DNA of 51,280 nt from contig MWCM01000009.1 of assembly GCA_002070055.1 (NCBI GenBank), forward strand, positions 1 through 51,280. The letters are read 5' to 3'. Source of the DNA: a bacterium ADurb.Bin212. GTDB taxonomy: Bacteria > Patescibacteriota > UBA1384 > XYA2-FULL-43-10. Position 1 is the first letter of the stretch; each line of letters opens with the position of its first letter. The notes below the pieces were generated by a model. It saw nothing but the letters and a program-made list of their open reading frames with translations. It was not told the origin of the DNA and made no database searches. Below, piece after piece: positions 1-51,090 of the stretch. Both the position numbers and the translations under genes were made by a program.

Positions 1-84
1 TCAAGAAGATGACACTGGCCTTCCTACCGTTTGCAGTTATCTCACTACTTTTACCACACTAAGTGGCGAAGAGCCTTGTGCGCC

Positions 85-113
85 TTGACAAAACGGCTAA
101 TATGTGATAGAAT
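85..113 (+). promoter_or_regulatory. Sigma-70 type promoter of the GC-rich secreted gene
   Basis: A consensus TTGACA (85-90) is followed after exactly 17 bases by TAGAAT (108-113). The start point would lie near 120, giving a leader of about 100 bases before the ATG at 223. The leader holds a small hairpin (CAGCC paired with GGCTG, about 180-199) and a strong Shine-Dalgarno sequence at 206-213. Upstream bases 1-84 hold nothing I can name. Confidence 0.7.
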
Positions 114-222
114 GCATAAGTTTGCGCATGGCAAATCGCTCCTTAACGAGTTGAGGTTCGACTGCCGTTGGCAACAAGCAGCCTGTATTAACGGGCTGAC
201 TGAATAGAGGAGGTCATCTAAC

Positions 223-1056
223 ATGACCGCCACCAAGCTGTTCGCCATCGCCATCGCCCTGATCGCCACTCTGGCCACCCCCGCGCTGTGCGCGGACGGC
301 GGGTTGAACCCCGCCGACATCCCCGGCGCCGATGCTTGGGATGTTCCCGGCGAAGTCGACGAGGTCGACCGCCAGGCGGCTAAGTCCGACTGGTCAACGG
401 TAGACTTCGTTGGTCACAGCGAAGTGATCGAGGGCGAGTACATCCCCGAACGCCGCGATCGTTGGGACATGGCAAGAATTGGGATGGTCGCCAGAGGTAA
501 GTACCCGTTCATGGAAAACACCACGACGGGGTACACCAGGCCCAAGGACATGCAGGAGTTGTTCAGCGAGATGGACGGCGAGACCGTTTCGCGCATGCTC
601 ACGCCAGAAGTGAGCTACTCTCTGAGCGAGGACTACACCTACGTCTTTGTCTCGGACATGCAAGCTCGCCACTTCTTTCCTGCCTACATCGAGCGCTCCG
701 AGAAGTCGGGCGTGGAACCCAGGACCACGGACGGCGCAACTGTGTACGACAAGTACAGAGTCGTGTCATTCTACGGTGTCTGGCAAAACGCCAAACTGGG
801 ACGCATCGTCAGATTCTTCGACCTGCGTCTCCCTGACTGGGAACACCGTGTTGTCTGGCAAGACAGTAGCGGAAACCGCCAGACGACCGAGTGGACTCGA
901 TCTGGCGCTGAGGCCTCTACTTGGCTCAGCGGGATTGCGACACCCAGTAACTGGGGACGCGTGGAGCATCGGTACTCTCCTGTCGCTTCCATGCTCATCA
1001 TACATATCGAAGGTCGGCAGGTCTGGCGGGGTGACTACCGCCAGATACCCGACTAA
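223..1056 (+). CDS. GC-rich secreted protein of unknown function
   Basis: A 277-residue protein that I do not recognise. Residues 1-24 look like a Sec signal peptide: a short charged start, a long Ala/Ile/Leu stretch and a small residue before DGG, so the product is probably exported. The mature part is acidic, then rich in Trp, Tyr and Arg, with no membrane segment and no obvious catalytic motif. The start is secure because GAGGAGG lies 8-10 bases before the ATG. Codon third positions are mostly G or C, unlike nearly every other gene in the window, which points to recent transfer or to a gene under separate codon pressure. It has its own promoter and is followed by a GC-rich hairpin, so it behaves as a free-standing unit. 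Confidence 0.8.
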   Translation: MTATKLFAIAIALIATLATPALCADGGLNPADIPGADAWDVPGEVDEVDRQAAKSDWSTVDFVGHSEVIEGEYIPERRDRWDMARIGMVARGKYPFMENTTTGYTRPKDMQELFSEMDGETVSRMLTPEVSYSLSEDYTYVFVSDMQARHFFPAYIERSEKSGVEPRTTDGATVYDKYRVVSFYGVWQNAKLGRIVRFFDLRLPDWEHRVVWQDSSGNRQTTEWTRSGAEASTWLSGIATPSNWGRVEHRYSPVASMLIIHIEGRQVWRGDYRQIPD

Positions 1057-1064
1057 GAACCGGT

Positions 1065-1098
1065 CCCCCGCCGCGCGCGAAGCTGCGCACGGCGGGGG
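1065..1098 (+). terminator. GC-rich hairpin after the secreted orphan gene
   Basis: CCCCCGCCG (1065-1073) pairs perfectly with CGGCGGGGG (1090-1098), just after the stop codon at 1054-1056. There is no T-run directly after it, so it may act as an RNA 3' stabiliser or need the downstream hairpin at 1154 to end transcription. The high GC content of the flank stops right here. Confidence 0.55.
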
Positions 1099-1115
1099 CG
1101 CCAATCTTACACCTA

Positions 1116-1144
1116 TTGACAAGTATTAAAATATATGCTATAAT
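1116..1144 (+). promoter_or_regulatory. Consensus promoter leading directly into a terminator
   Basis: TTGACA (1116-1121), a 17-base spacer and TATAAT (1139-1144), with TG one base before the -10, make the best promoter match in the window. The predicted start near 1151 is only three bases before a strong intrinsic terminator, so the default transcript would be about 36-40 bases long. Confidence 0.7.
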
Positions 1145-1363: not shown

Positions 1364-1436
1364 ACCTCATTAAACAAGGGATTTGGGGCAAGGCATAATA
1401 CTCCGAACATTACCTCGCCGACTTCCAAATCACATT

Positions 1437-2165
1437 ATGGTTCTTCTTAAGAAGAATTTAGTAAGTGTTGTTAAATCAACTTTAAAATTTAAAAAGATCG
1501 CCAGTATTGTAGCCGCAATATTACTTACAGCTACACTGCTAGGCTTAATCGCTATCGAATCTCCTCAGGTTGTTAGGGGTAGCGATGAAAATAATAAAAC
1601 TAAACCAAACTTAATTTTTAAGCCAGAAAGTCACAAGGCTGTAGTTTTGGGTGATAAAAAGCCTGAAATTGTGCCTGGTGAATCTTTGGCACAAAAGGAA
1701 GCTAGAGAAAAGGCTGAGGCTGAGGCAAAAATAAAGGCGCAGACCTTAATTGCCGCTAAAAGTAGAAGTGTGGTCTCTCGCGAAAGAAGGATTTATAATG
1801 ATCCAACCAGCTTTGATGGTATTTATACTGCGGCTGGAAACGCTTTTGGGGTTGACCCTATGCTACTTAAAGCCATTCACTACGTAGAAACCGGCTGTTC
1901 TGGTTCGACTACCCGTTCCTCACACATGGGAGCAACAGGTCCGATGCAGTTCTTACCATCTACCTTTGCTAGACACGGTGTAGATGGAAATGGAGACGGA
2001 TTCAAGGATATTCATAATGTAGAGGATGCAATATTCTCTGCTGCCAATTATTTGCGAGCTTGCGGATACCCAAATATCCAAAGAGCGCTTTGGGGATACA
2101 ATCCATCACAGTCATATTATAATAAGGTGATAGGTGTAGCCAGATCTTTCGGCATGATTATCTAA
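1437..2165 (+). CDS. Membrane-anchored lytic transglycosylase (SLT domain)
   Basis: The protein has 242 residues from the ATG at 1437; a longer reading from a TTG at 1383 is possible but that segment is not coding-like. A transmembrane segment at about residues 22-42 is followed by a charged Ala/Lys/Glu-rich linker (about 82-105) and a C-terminal SLT lysozyme-like domain. The likely catalytic Glu is residue 151 in HYVETG, followed by the GPMQFLPSTF motif and an AANYLRACG helix, all typical of the family. It should cleave the glycan strands of peptidoglycan outside the cell. No good ribosome site lies before 1437, so the exact start is unsure. It is a single-gene unit with a structured leader and ends at the terminator 2214-2244. 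Confidence 0.85.
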   Translation: MVLLKKNLVSVVKSTLKFKKIASIVAAILLTATLLGLIAIESPQVVRGSDENNKTKPNLIFKPESHKAVVLGDKKPEIVPGESLAQKEAREKAEAEAKIKAQTLIAAKSRSVVSRERRIYNDPTSFDGIYTAAGNAFGVDPMLLKAIHYVETGCSGSTTRSSHMGATGPMQFLPSTFARHGVDGNGDGFKDIHNVEDAIFSAANYLRACGYPNIQRALWGYNPSQSYYNKVIGVARSFGMII

Positions 2166-28568: not shown

Positions 28569-30173
28569 TTGCTGATTCAAAAGGTCAGGTCGCAAAAAAT
28601 TCATATGTCATCATTTAATAAGGATCACTCGCCTTATGTTCTTTTAGTTTTAGATGGTTGGGGAATTGCTCCATCTTGGGGAGGTAATGCCATATCACAA
28701 GCCAAAACTCCTAACTATAATTATCTTTGCAAAAATTTTCTGTATACAACGGTTAAAGCTTCCGGGAGAGACGTCGGCTTACCAGATGACTCTGCCGGCA
28801 ATTCCGAGGCCGGCCATTTGAACCTAGGTGCCGGCAAAATCATTCTCCAAGATGAGACAATTATTAATAAAGAAATTGAAAACGGGCATTTTTTTCAGAA
28901 GAAATTGTTGCTCGAAGCGTTTGATCATGCCCAAAAAAATAACTCAACAGTTCATTTCATGGGCTTACTATCCGATGCTGGGACTCATAGCCACATTTCC
29001 CATCTTTTCGCCTTGATTGATATGGCAAAGCAATTGAGTTTCAGGCGCGTGAAGCTTCATCTTTTTTCAGATGGCAGAGATTCCGCCCCTATGAGTGGTA
29101 TTGAACTCTTAGACAAGGTCGAGAGATATATCTCTCACGCGGGGATTGGTGAGATTTGTAGCATAATGGGCCGATATTATGCAATGGATAGAGACAACAG
29201 GTGGGGTCGCACTTCTAGAGCATACAATACTTTAGTCAAAGGAGAGGCGGAATTTGCCTCCAACGCGCGACAAGTTTTTTCAAAATCCTACGCCAGAGGC
29301 ATAACGGATGAATTTATTGAACCAAGGATTATTGTTAACGCTGAGCAACACGCATCGTTAGTTAAGGACAATGATGTGGTAATTCTTTTTAATTTCCGTC
29401 CGGACAGGGTCAAACAAATAACCATGTCATTTTTGGCCAATGAAATTGCCGAGTTCCCAGATCGGAAAAAATTGAATAACATTAAGTTCCTGTCTTTTAC
29501 TATGTATGAGCAACACTACGGTGATTGGCCAATTCAGCACATCTTTAAGCCCGACACCAACAAATCGCCTCTTTCGAAAATTCTGTCTGAGAACAACCTT
29601 AAGCAACTTCATATCGCCGAAACGGAAAAATATGCTCATGTTACTTATTTTTTCAACGGCGGCAATGACAAGCCCTTTCCAAATGAAAACTGGAATTTGG
29701 TGCCTTCCCCAAAGGTAAAAACCTATGATGTTACTCCCCATATGAGCGCACAGACCATAACCACATATTTAGTCAAAGCTCTTGATGAAAATAAATACGA
29801 TGTAATTGTAGCGAACTATGCAAACCCTGATATGGTTGGACACACCGGCAATCTACAATCAACAATTCAAGCTGTCACTTTTGTTGATCATTGCTTGGGG
29901 GTAATTGCTAAAAAAGTTGTCGATAAGGGCGGTACATTGCTGGTATGCGCAGATCATGGCAATGCAGAGCAGATGATCTCCCCAACTACCGGCCAAGCTT
30001 ACACAGAGCACTCTACTAATCCTGTGCCGTTCATCATCGCATCTAAACACGTTGATAAAGTAAAAAATCATTTAATTCCGGGAAGGCTTTCTGACATTGC
30101 CCCCACGCTTTTATATATGGCAAACATCGGTATACCCGATGAAATGGCCGGATCAAACATACTTTTTAGATAA
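28569..30173 (+). CDS. gpmI: 2,3-bisphosphoglycerate-independent phosphoglycerate mutase
   Basis: A 534-residue enzyme that converts 3-phosphoglycerate to 2-phosphoglycerate with two metal ions. Motifs in order: VLDGWGIAPS, GNSEAGHLNLGAG with the phosphorylated Ser, DAGTHSHISHL, SDGRDSAP, NFRPDRVKQ, ETEKYAHVTYF with the catalytic Lys, NPDMVGHTG and ADHGNAEQM. All metal ligands appear intact. The start is taken as the TTG at 28569 because GGAGGGG lies just before it; the ATG at 28605 has no ribosome site. It is followed after 26 bases by a divergent paralogue. Confidence 0.94.
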   Translation: MLIQKVRSQKIHMSSFNKDHSPYVLLVLDGWGIAPSWGGNAISQAKTPNYNYLCKNFLYTTVKASGRDVGLPDDSAGNSEAGHLNLGAGKIILQDETIINKEIENGHFFQKKLLLEAFDHAQKNNSTVHFMGLLSDAGTHSHISHLFALIDMAKQLSFRRVKLHLFSDGRDSAPMSGIELLDKVERYISHAGIGEICSIMGRYYAMDRDNRWGRTSRAYNTLVKGEAEFASNARQVFSKSYARGITDEFIEPRIIVNAEQHASLVKDNDVVILFNFRPDRVKQITMSFLANEIAEFPDRKKLNNIKFLSFTMYEQHYGDWPIQHIFKPDTNKSPLSKILSENNLKQLHIAETEKYAHVTYFFNGGNDKPFPNENWNLVPSPKVKTYDVTPHMSAQTITTYLVKALDENKYDVIVANYANPDMVGHTGNLQSTIQAVTFVDHCLGVIAKKVVDKGGTLLVCADHGNAEQMISPTTGQAYTEHSTNPVPFIIASKHVDKVKNHLIPGRLSDIAPTLLYMANIGIPDEMAGSNILFR

Positions 30174-30199: not shown

Positions 30200-31801
30200 A
30201 TGGCCAATCTAGACACAAAAATTCTTTTATTAATATTGGATGGTTGGGGGCTCTCCCCTTCTTGGGGGGGCAATGCCATCTCCTTGAATAATCCCAACAA
30301 TATTAACAATCTATGGAGGTCTTACCCACATAAAATATTAAAAGCTTATGATCGATCAATATCTAAAACCGGCTATATTGGTAACTCTGAAATCGGTCAC
30401 TCAGCTATATCGGCTGGCAAATTTGTAATACCAAATCTGGACTATATTGATGCTCATATAAATGATGGCAGCTATATGGATAACCAAGTGCTTAAGCTAG
30501 CAGCCGAGAATTGTCATAAACATGATTCATCTCTACACCTTATTGGCATGATATCAAATGCTGGTATACACTCCCACCTTAATCATCTTTACGCCATGCT
30601 GAATTTCGCCAAACAGCAAAATATCTCTAAGGTTTACGTCCACGCCATAACTGACGGAAGAGACACAGGTCCAACCGATGCAATTTTATACATGGGTGAT
30701 CTGATAAATAATATTAAAAGAATTGGCGTGGGCGAAATAGCCACCGTTTCTGGAAGATTTTACGCCATGGACAAGGGCAACCACTATGACCGCATTAATT
30801 TGGCATACAAAGCAATAGTTCAGGGTGTTGGAGATATGGGCATTGAGCCAAGACAGGTGGTTTCAAGATCTTACGAAAAGGGCTACACCGATGAATACAT
30901 TCCTCCAACTGTAATTATCAAGAACCACAAACCGACAGCTAGAATAAATGATTTTGATAGTGTTATATTTTTTAATTATCGCTCAGATCGCATGCAAGAG
31001 TTATGCGCAACATTAATTGGAAAATTTAAAATCGGTTGGAATTTTAAACGAATATACAACCTCTTTATTGCTACTTTTACCGACTACTTTTACCAGGAGT
31101 ATAATTACGGTTACAATGTCATTTTTAAACGCCCAACACTGGAACCGAATTTGGCTCAGATTGTATCTAATAATAAAATGAGGCAGATTCATATCGCAGA
31201 AAGCGAAAAGAGTTCACACGTCACATATTTTTTTGACGGTGGACGGCTCGAAGCATACCCCGGAGAGGAGTGGAAGATTATACCGTCCCCGAACATTCCA
31301 GACTTTACTAATAAACCGGAGATGTCAGCTAGCGGGGTTTCGGCCGCCATTATCTCCTCAATGCAGAGCAACAAATACAACTTAATCGTAGCGAACCTAG
31401 CAAATGTTGATGTGCTTGGTCACTCGGGAGATATTAGAGCTACCGCCAGAGCCGTCGACGTTGTCGACGCTGAAGTCGGCAAGATTTTCGAACAGTGTCG
31501 TCGGAACAACTATCATCTAATTATTACCTCTGATCACGGTAACGCAGAACAGATGATAAAAGTCGCTGATTCGGGAAGTGACAGGGAGATTGTCCACACG
31601 GTTAATCCGGTCCCATTTATTTTAGCTAAGGGGGATGCTCAATACAAAAACACTCACTTTGCTTCCAGTCAAAACATGTTATCGGATATACTAAGATCTG
31701 ACGGCACACTAGCTGATGTTGCACCGACCATATTGGAGTTGTTCGAAATTGACAAGCCAAAAGAAATGGAAGGCATATCATTACTTAATAGATTAGAATA
31801 G
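30200..31801 (+). CDS. Second, divergent phosphoglycerate mutase (iPGM family)
   Basis: A 533-residue paralogue of the preceding gene, nearly the same length. Core metal-site motifs remain: LILDGWGLSPSWGG, IGNSEIGHSAISAGK with the Ser, NAGIHSHLNHL, TDGRDTGP, NYRSDRMQE, ESEKSSHVTYF and SDHGNAEQM. Around the phosphoserine the usual HLN(I/L)GAG(R/K) is changed to HSAISAGK, and segments between motifs differ widely from the first copy. It could be a second mutase or a related phosphotransferase with another substrate. It starts a co-directional run with pduL and the acetate kinase-like gene. Confidence 0.85.
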   Translation: MANLDTKILLLILDGWGLSPSWGGNAISLNNPNNINNLWRSYPHKILKAYDRSISKTGYIGNSEIGHSAISAGKFVIPNLDYIDAHINDGSYMDNQVLKLAAENCHKHDSSLHLIGMISNAGIHSHLNHLYAMLNFAKQQNISKVYVHAITDGRDTGPTDAILYMGDLINNIKRIGVGEIATVSGRFYAMDKGNHYDRINLAYKAIVQGVGDMGIEPRQVVSRSYEKGYTDEYIPPTVIIKNHKPTARINDFDSVIFFNYRSDRMQELCATLIGKFKIGWNFKRIYNLFIATFTDYFYQEYNYGYNVIFKRPTLEPNLAQIVSNNKMRQIHIAESEKSSHVTYFFDGGRLEAYPGEEWKIIPSPNIPDFTNKPEMSASGVSAAIISSMQSNKYNLIVANLANVDVLGHSGDIRATARAVDVVDAEVGKIFEQCRRNNYHLIITSDHGNAEQMIKVADSGSDREIVHTVNPVPFILAKGDAQYKNTHFASSQNMLSDILRSDGTLADVAPTILELFEIDKPKEMEGISLLNRLE

Positions 31802-48925: not shown

Positions 48926-49087
48926 TATATATCGATTAAAGATGTCCAAAGAAACAGCTAAATTTAAGGCGACCAAAAATACCATAATGCAGTCAAAAGA
49001 GTGCTACCTGATTCGAAATTTCTTACGTAAACGCAAGCCGCGATATATGGCAGGTTTAATAGATAGCGACAAAATTAATATAATAAG

Positions 49088-49120
49088 AAAAACGATCTCC
49101 GAAATGGAGGTCGTTTTTTT
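49088..49120 (+). terminator. Second intrinsic terminator before the CYTH-AAA gene
   Basis: AACGATCTCC (49091-49100) pairs with GGAGGTCGTT (49106-49115), with one G-T wobble, followed by seven T residues. Together with 48901-48925 it forms two terminators in series upstream of the gene at 49252. Bases 49121-49251 hold no other clear feature. Confidence 0.8.
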
Positions 49121-49251
49121 AAATCCAACAAATTGCGTCACAGACGACTGTTCTAAAACAAATGACGAAACAATATGTCCCCGCTCAAGCGACTTGCAGA
49201 ACATCTTACCACAAATAGCTAGTAAGTTTATTAAATATAGAAAGGATCAAA

Positions 49252-50583
49252 GTGAAAGAAAGAGAGATGAAGTATCTGCCCGAAAAGCAACATTTTTGTG
49301 GCAAAGGAGGAAAGCGAATTAGACAGGTCTATTTAGATCTGGAGAATACGGAACTGCTTGAAATAATTAAGCCGTTGCTCGGCACAACCGAGGTGGAACA
49401 AGTTAGCGAAGTGAGGGTTCGGCAAAAAGCAGATGAACAAAATACCAGTTTCACTCTAACGGCAAAAAGCGCGGGAGGAGAAGTTAGGGAGGAGTATGAG
49501 GTAGAAATTAATGAACAGCGTTTCCGAGAATTATTAAAATTCGGCAGCATGGGCGAAATATCAAAAGAACGCTTTGACTGTGAGATTGTTGAGGGAGTTA
49601 TTGCAGAAGTGGATGTTTACCATGGAAAACTTGAGGGCCTAGTAACCATAGAGGTTGAATACGATGCTGAGAGCATTTCGCAAGCTGAAGTAGAAGCACT
49701 AATACAAAACTTTGCAGGCAAAGGAGAGGTTGTAAGTGAGTATCAAAGCTACAAAAACAAGAATTTAGCTAAAGCCGAGAGCTTAAATGAGGTATATAGA
49801 GCTTTTGACAAAGAAAAAATTGAGAAAAACACCGAAACAAAAACCGAGAGAAGTCGTCCACAGGTTAAAAAGATCGCCATAACCGGCGGTCCATGCGCTG
49901 GAAAATCACAAGTTATGGAGGCGCTAAAGACAGAGTTTGGCGACAAACTTCACATCCTAGGTGAAGTTGCTACACAACTTTTGGAGATCCCATACGAACA
50001 GGGAGGAATAGGGGTACCTGGCAAAGATGTAGAATGGAGCCCCGAGTGGCAAAGCGAGTTTCAAAGAAGAGTAATTGAAAAACAACTCGAAGACGAAACT
50101 CTGCTGGTGCAGATAGCAAGTCTGAGCCAAGAAGGCTCTGTATTACTATGCGACAGAGGTATATTGGACGGAGCTGCGTACACAGAGGGAGGCCGAGATA
50201 ACTTCTTGGCCCAACAACGAATCGGTCTTGCACAGTGCTTCGAGCTTTACGACGCAGTGATCCACCTAAACTCACTGGCAACCGACAATCCCGAAATGTA
50301 CGAAGAGCTTAAGCATACCAACCCGAGTCGCTTTGAAGATGGTGAAAGTGCTAGAGCCCTAGATGAAGCGATTGCCGAAGCCTACTGCGGACACGAAGCA
50401 CTAATAAGAATACCGGCTCAACCTAGTATTGAAGACAAAATAGCCTACTGTAAACAGATAATAGAAAATATTGGCGGGCTAATAATTGAACAAAATCTGG
50501 AAAAGACACGCACTGAGCACATACACAATACAGAGATTCACAATGAGATACGTCAAGAAAAAGACTTACACAAAAATAGTTAG
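49252..50583 (+). CDS. CYTH domain-AAA ATPase fusion protein
   Basis: A 443-residue fusion. Residues 1-140 form a CYTH (triphosphate tunnel) domain: the ExExK motif is Glu3-Glu5-Lys7, followed by KRIRQVYLD, VRVRQKADE, EEYEVEI and the EVDVYHGKLEGLVTIEVEY strand. Residues about 205-420 form a P-loop domain with Walker A GGPCAGKS (212-219) and a Walker B-like LLCDRGILDGAAY, as in NadR- or AAA_28-type nucleotide kinases. A charged linker joins them. CYTH domains hydrolyse triphosphates such as thiamine triphosphate or polyphosphate, or make cyclic AMP. The start is the GTG at 49252: AAGGA lies before it, and a later start would remove Glu3. The substrate of either half is unknown. Confidence 0.88.
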   Translation: MKEREMKYLPEKQHFCGKGGKRIRQVYLDLENTELLEIIKPLLGTTEVEQVSEVRVRQKADEQNTSFTLTAKSAGGEVREEYEVEINEQRFRELLKFGSMGEISKERFDCEIVEGVIAEVDVYHGKLEGLVTIEVEYDAESISQAEVEALIQNFAGKGEVVSEYQSYKNKNLAKAESLNEVYRAFDKEKIEKNTETKTERSRPQVKKIAITGGPCAGKSQVMEALKTEFGDKLHILGEVATQLLEIPYEQGGIGVPGKDVEWSPEWQSEFQRRVIEKQLEDETLLVQIASLSQEGSVLLCDRGILDGAAYTEGGRDNFLAQQRIGLAQCFELYDAVIHLNSLATDNPEMYEELKHTNPSRFEDGESARALDEAIAEAYCGHEALIRIPAQPSIEDKIAYCKQIIENIGGLIIEQNLEKTRTEHIHNTEIHNEIRQEKDLHKNS

Positions 50584-50709: not shown

Positions 50710-51018
50710 ATGCCCTGCAAGACATTGCGCGGCAAGGCAATGGCTTTCCTTACATCCAAGTTTGTCGTCACTTGGGAGGAAGCACGTACAATCGCATGTG
50801 TTAGCGGCTACGAGAGCTCCTCTCACAGGCCTCTCACCATCAGCGATCAGAAGAAGCTGGCCAAGATCGGCAATAACAGGAAGCTTGTTGCCCGTCGCAA
50901 CAAGCCGAAGGGCGTCGGGAGGAAGAAGCGGCGGATGTCGCAAGGTTTATCGCGAAGCAAGCAAGCTACAAGCACCTACTCCAGGCAAACTTCCGCTCGT
51001 TCGTCGTGGTCGTGGTAG
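50710..51018 (+). pseudogene. GC-rich orphan gene, probably frameshifted
   Basis: A 102-residue reading frame starting at an ATG with GGGAGG seven bases upstream. Up to about residue 68 it has G/C-rich third positions and a natural composition. After that it turns into an Arg/Ser-rich stretch, while the -1 frame (open 50877-51101) reads as a natural sequence with EEEAADVARFIAKQASY and a hydrophobic core FRSFVVVVVAFIPVPG. The simplest reading is one gene of about 120-130 residues with a frame change between 50877 and 50940, through mutation, sequence error or recoding. I do not recognise a family. Base composition matches the other orphan at 223-1056. Confidence 0.5.
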
Positions 51019-51031
51019 CGTTCATCCCGGT

Positions 51032-51055
51032 CCCTGGTAAGACGTTTTGCCAGGG
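51032..51055 (+). terminator. GC-rich hairpin at the end of the second orphan gene
   Basis: CCCTGG (51032-51037) pairs with CCAGGG (51050-51055) around a 12-base loop. As at 1065-1098, it has no T-run and marks the end of GC-rich sequence. Confidence 0.4.
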
Positions 51056-51090
51056 CCCGGCCTACACCCAAAACCAATATTTCATAACAA

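Follow-up and report, generated by a model that had tools for sequence, protein, structure and literature searches.

A GC-rich single-gene unit between conserved genes of a Patescibacteria chromosome, and a probable class of acquired units with the same layout

Results

Genes and signals at the ends of the contig

The DNA analysed here, referred to as the window, is a stretch of 51,280 nt corresponding to the entire contig C9 of a 1.22 Mb genome assembled in 74 contigs (the focal genome, G000). The candidate phyla radiation (Patescibacteria) characteristically lacks the ribosomal protein uL30, which is absent from the focal genome and from 113 of the 117 sampled genomes of the same phylum, and present in 13 of 14 control genomes. 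The features found at the two ends of the window are listed in Table 1.

Table 1. Features at the left and right ends of the window
Feature	Position	Strand	Remarks
Right end of insertion-sequence-like repeat	1..75	+	terminates TTACCACACTAAGTGGCGAAGAGCC; identical at the contig ends of C5 and C18
9-bp target duplication	76..84	+	TTGTGCGCC; also beside the other end of the element on C14
Promoter of the focal gene	85..113	+	TTGACA-17-TAGAAT; extended -10 TG; 11/12 consensus
Structured 5' leader of the focal gene	114..222	+	z -3.5 for 117-240
Leader stem-loop	179-198	+	CAGCCTGT/ACGGGCTG
Shine-Dalgarno sequence ahead of the focal ATG	206-214	+	AGAGGAGGT
Focal orphan gene (P0001)	223..1056	+	277 aa; predicted Sec-exported; GC3 0.75
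GC-rich 3' hairpin	1062..1102	+	closes the GC-rich unit of the focal gene
Promoter of the lytic transglycosylase gene	1116..1144	+	perfect consensus, 12/12; directly after the focal unit
Conserved lytic-transglycosylase-like gene	1383..2165	+	start uncertain; right flank of the exchange site
Second GC-rich orphan gene	50710..51018	+	102 aa; GC3 0.69
GC-rich hairpin after the second gene	51027..51060	+	-23.2 kcal/mol; z -3.7

The focal gene has a GC content of 0.60, with values of 0.58/0.47/0.75 at the three codon positions. In a whole-genome ranking of genes of at least 100 aa its GC3 comes 8th of 896 (robust z of 8.4, for a genome median of 0.37), in agreement with the original prediction that its third positions are mostly G or C. 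The neighbours had been described as strongly A/T: their GC3 is indeed lower (0.33-0.43 for the next genes), but "strongly" is somewhat overstated. The N-terminus of P0001, MTATKLFAIAIALIATLATPALCADGG, resembles by eye a Sec signal peptide, and the protein is probably exported and works at the cell surface or outside it. Searches in Pfam, NCBIfam, PHROGs, PADLOC, PDB, phages and viral contigs gave no homologue of P0001, and neither did the 55 genomes of the class nor the 379 other genomes of the phylum. The single match, treated as no more than a lead, was weak, covering 54 aa at 33% in a Verrucomicrobium PSD1 protein and seeded by an exact 8-mer. P0001 can thus be called an orphan, as proposed, and the native high-GC homologues that would have spoken for a resident gene are missing from the 380 genomes of the phylum searched. 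An AlphaFold model computed from the single sequence had a pLDDT of 36.5.

The expression signals that had been predicted around the focal gene, namely a consensus promoter of its own, a strong ribosome site and a GC-rich 3' hairpin, were all recovered. The promoter begins 138 nt before the ATG and lies 110 nt upstream of it. At the 3' side, a 59-nt stretch folds at -37.5 kcal/mol (z -4.9), a value that none of the shuffled sequences equalled, though the hairpin has no T run and a terminator scan gave no call there. Transcription presumably terminates at this hairpin and, judging from promoter, leader and hairpin together, the unit may be "specially expressed", as had been suggested. The promoter of the transglycosylase gene starts 14 nt past the hairpin, and a similar one is found for this gene in two other genomes, G049 and G054.

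A second gene of the same composition and design had been noticed at the right end of the window. Composition and hairpin are indeed comparable, but the design is only partly so: no consensus promoter scored above 9/12, and inspection by eye showed no signal peptide in the encoded protein, which is basic. The 55 genomes of the class yielded no homologue of this gene. Elsewhere in the window, two adjacent genes (28569-30173 and 30200-31801) both have N-termini that look phosphoglycerate mutase-like by eye and are followed by phosphotransacetylase-, acetate kinase- and 2-oxoacid oxidoreductase-like genes; an orphan ORF without Pfam match (48942-49322) overlaps the start of an AAA/CYTH-like gene (49252-50583).

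An insertion sequence forms the left contig end

The repeat at the left edge belongs to an insertion sequence, perhaps ISL3-like. Its ends read GGCTCYTCRCCACTTAGTG, and the opposite end of the element was found on contigs C10, C11 and C14. Pairing these ends across contigs by their neighbouring bases resolved three insertions, each with its own 9-bp duplication: TTGTGCGCC for C14/C9, GCTAATGCC for C5/C11 and TTTGTATAT for C18/C10. In all three resolved copies the duplication is directly followed by TTGACA, a promoter -35 box, and the insertion sequence seems to target promoters. Because the duplications end at TTGACA, the element must have landed between the focal promoter and the former upstream DNA, which is found on C14, a contig that begins with a SprT-like metalloprotease gene. 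The matching duplication on the partner contig shows that an insertion sequence, and not a chimeric junction, ends the contig here, which largely answers the original prediction's concern about an assembly junction at this edge. The element was also considered as the carrier of the focal gene; this was rejected, as the duplication places both of its ends outside the unit. The same insertion sequence lies just upstream of the promoter of another GC-rich unit of the genome, which encodes a membrane protein (C10:48935-50134).

The junction is variably occupied in related genomes

The SprT-like and transglycosylase genes are divergent at the focal junction, and each of the order's 11 genomes has the latter. 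We compared this junction among relatives, of which G054 belongs to the same family as the focal genome, and G049 and G050 to one genus; gap sizes were calculated from tblastn positions. Three genomes from three other genera carry a GC-rich gene at the same place and in the same orientation as the focal gene: 131 aa and GC3 0.65 in G054, 118 aa and GC3 0.68 in G049, both with hairpins, and 401 aa and GC3 0.58 in G053. No similarity was detected among these three proteins and the 277-aa focal protein. In G045, G046 and G048 the two flanking genes are adjacent, with about 330-360 bp between them and no unit. The junction of G050 measures only about 450 bp and, judged by this size, holds no unit, and a homologue of the G049 unit was found nowhere in the genome of G050. 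In G051 the gap is about 770 bp.

GC-rich single-gene units form a genome-wide class

Listing the outliers in GC3 and codon usage, a check proposed with the original prediction, yielded about 25 GC-rich units in the whole focal genome, surveyed over all contigs of 3 kb or more, and 26 in about 0.4 Mb of G054. Units were retained by an automatic scan if they encoded at least 80 aa with GC3 of at least 0.60 and showed the codon-position pattern of GC-rich coding DNA; a few calls are perhaps spurious. The layout of the focal unit is enriched among them. In the focal genome, 64% of units but 24% of other genes are separated from both neighbours by more than 60 nt. A promoter matching at least 10/12 positions precedes 44% of units in the focal genome and 47% in G054, compared to 17% and 11% of other genes; in the focal genome this was tested among genes with a long upstream gap, and no shuffled sequence reached 10/12. 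The 70 nt 3' of focal-genome units fold on average at -24.5 kcal/mol (z -3.2) versus -10.3 kcal/mol (z -0.9) for other genes, and hairpins below -18 kcal/mol follow 85% (focal genome) and 92% (G054) of units versus 13% and 14% of the others. A slightly stronger leader structure of units was seen in the focal genome alone (p 0.03).

The GC profile of the units is flat and AT-rich until about 60 nt before the start, and reaches 0.55 at the ribosome site; on the 3' side it stays near 0.55 for about 60 nt beyond the stop codon, then falls sharply between 60 and 80 nt to 0.33. Promoter spacers are AT-rich, as in resident genes. Codon usage of the units correlates at r = 0.945 between the focal genome and G054 and at about 0.94 with two more distant genomes, against only 0.16 with the resident genes of the focal genome. 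Tryptophan amounts to 2.6% of residues in units versus 1.0%, and tryptophan and cysteine are doubled. Shared codon usage, hairpins and promoters, in the focal genome as in its relatives, thus bear out the suggestion that such cassettes constitute a class.

In contrast to this uniformity of composition, the genes themselves differ from genome to genome. All-against-all comparison showed the units to be nearly all singletons, the exceptions being two paralogues lying side by side in G054 and a few remote matches between enzymes. Roughly a quarter of 54 unit proteins matched a known family, the remainder being orphans. Recognisable units encode PurM, PlsY, UbiA, thymidylate kinase, Lnt-like, radical SAM, GHMP kinase, amidase, M23 and other proteins; models of defence proteins gave few further matches. 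In one unit of the focal genome (C5:50851-52707) a PlsY acyltransferase domain is joined to a dehydrogenase-like domain at the C-terminus. G054 encodes a pair of GC-rich secreted paralogues (L126, 2499-3041 and 4126-4692) that end with an aromatic residue (QVMKF) in the style of outer-membrane barrels, and units at C15:3494 and C1:41131 of the focal genome are similar to them by eye. These bacteria are thought to have no outer membrane, which makes barrel-style proteins odd. Two GC-rich islands of about 0.9 kb in the focal genome (C1:11293-12213 and C14:7400-8302) contain no convincing reading frame and are possibly decayed units.

Units recur at the same junctions

Three further junctions are filled by unrelated units in both the focal genome and G054 (C8:42767/L125:5752, C2:60054/L156:6818 and C5:11989/L157:10425), always in equal orientation relative to their neighbours. 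At seven junctions G054 alone has a unit, and at one the focal genome alone; many units have no counterpart at the corresponding junction of the relative. Over all 144 intervals, the coincidence of filled junctions between the two genomes has a p value of 0.001; restricting the test to gaps of at least 100 nt gave 0.01, and to gaps of at least 200-300 nt, 0.04-0.05. This control for long gaps weakens the statistic for hot spots. Inclusion of the separately identified focal junction brings the p values to between 0.0001 and 0.02. Some empty sites are nearly seamless: where G054 holds two units the focal genome has a gap of 14 bp, and where the focal genome holds one, G043 has 7 bp. Units are thus gained, lost and replaced at conserved junctions of related genomes, in keeping with the proposal that they are transferred genes.

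Discussion

We propose that the focal gene is one of a class of horizontally acquired, autonomously expressed single-gene units that are swapped between conserved chromosomal genes, a reading to which we assign a probability of roughly 0.7. A unit would consist of an AT-rich sigma-70 promoter, a structured leader, a consensus ribosome site, a GC-rich coding region and a GC-rich 3' hairpin. The promoter would drive the gene wherever the unit lands, and the hairpin may both end the transcript and shield the resident promoter downstream, here that of the transglycosylase gene; the two signals would then free the unit from dependence on its site. DNA uptake is a plausible entry route. Homologous recombination in the conserved flanking genes probably swaps units within related populations, and a rarer illegitimate event could carry one to a new site. 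As the promoters of units are AT-rich and resemble resident rather than donor DNA, promoter and coding part may differ in history. Going further, it is conceivable, if tentative, that bacteria of this taxonomic class draw on a shared and hitherto undescribed pool of autonomous single-gene units with uniform high-GC coding regions, AT-rich promoters and hairpin ends. A dedicated mechanism would load them into preferred intergenic sites and replace them there, each species thereby holding its own set of exported or surface proteins.

The most serious alternative, possible but somewhat doubtful, is one-way transfer by natural competence from a single GC-rich partner, for instance a bacterium on which the cell lives, the units being recent imports. 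Uniform GC3 and codon usage among the units would follow naturally from a single donor, and a published survey of gene transfer into Patescibacteria mentions comEC/pili DNA uptake and donors from other phyla (PMC12455944). Random fragments, however, would not be expected to bring in whole units that have AT-rich promoters of resident type; moreover, the different genera share the composition but hold different genes, and sites are reused.

An origin from phage morons, left behind or carried by phages, appears improbable. A moron is a single gene with its own promoter and terminator, and the units share with morons this one-gene layout with promoter and 3' hairpin, a composition foreign to the surroundings and a variable presence. 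Unlike morons, they lie in the chromosome between housekeeping genes. The focal unit has no flanking phage genes, and no unit searched in viral collections has relatives there: P0001 has no match in phages, viral contigs or PHROGs, two other units have none in viral contigs, and one unit searched in plasmids has none either. Recognisable units, furthermore, encode enzymes such as PurM, PlsY and UbiA.

Less likely still is that these are resident, fast-evolving genes of fixed position whose high GC3 is maintained by selection, e.g. for expression or secretion. Position and orientation do recur across genera, as this would require, but the four junction proteins, of 277, 131, 118 and 401 aa, have no similarity, the junction is empty within one genus, and many units lack a counterpart at their junction. 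Finally, although the focal unit sits at a contig end of a 74-contig assembly, an assembly artefact or contaminating GC-rich DNA is very improbable, given that units of the class also occur inside contigs, that matching 9-bp duplications on C14 and C9 accompany the insertion sequence which makes up the contig end, and that C14 starts with the SprT-like gene which adjoins this site in relatives.

Horizontally acquired units as we envisage them share traits with several known systems. Like integron cassettes they are single, mostly orphan genes with a GC-rich terminal hairpin and a high turnover; unlike these cassettes they have their own promoter and are dispersed rather than arrayed. Neither a target duplication nor a shared end motif was found for the units (flanking direct repeats of 25 units in no excess, mean 8.08 versus 8.11). 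The attC-like core GTTRRRY occurs in 5% of 38 units versus 6% of shuffled sequences, and the pair RYYYAAC ... GTTRRRY in none. A transposon-borne gene does not fit: no terminal repeats or target duplication were found around units, and the insertion sequence at the left edge, with its own duplication, does not enclose the focal gene. As at chromosomal hot spots of transfer, different accessory genes occupy the same conserved junction in different genomes; what differs is that time and again a single autonomous GC-rich gene makes up the cargo, with a composition shared between genera, in a small genome of the candidate phyla radiation. Atypical composition and absence of homologues are common to acquired and orphan genes in general, but these are usually AT-richer than the host genome, whereas the units are much GC-richer.

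Gene transfers into Patescibacteria have been reported, and the available portion of that survey makes no mention of such a class (PMC12455944). We found no description of it in the open-access literature, to which the search was confined.

Small bacteria that depend on a host are regarded as streamlined. Here, foreign-looking orphans equipped for immediate expression make up about 2-6% of the genes, and their turnover at fixed sites extends even to two species of a single genus. Their layout offers a simple rule for spotting recent gene gains independently of homology. If the finding is general, the source of many unknown genes would become testable, and layout and composition together would permit listing units in any genome, finding their donors and asking whether exported units take part in host attachment.
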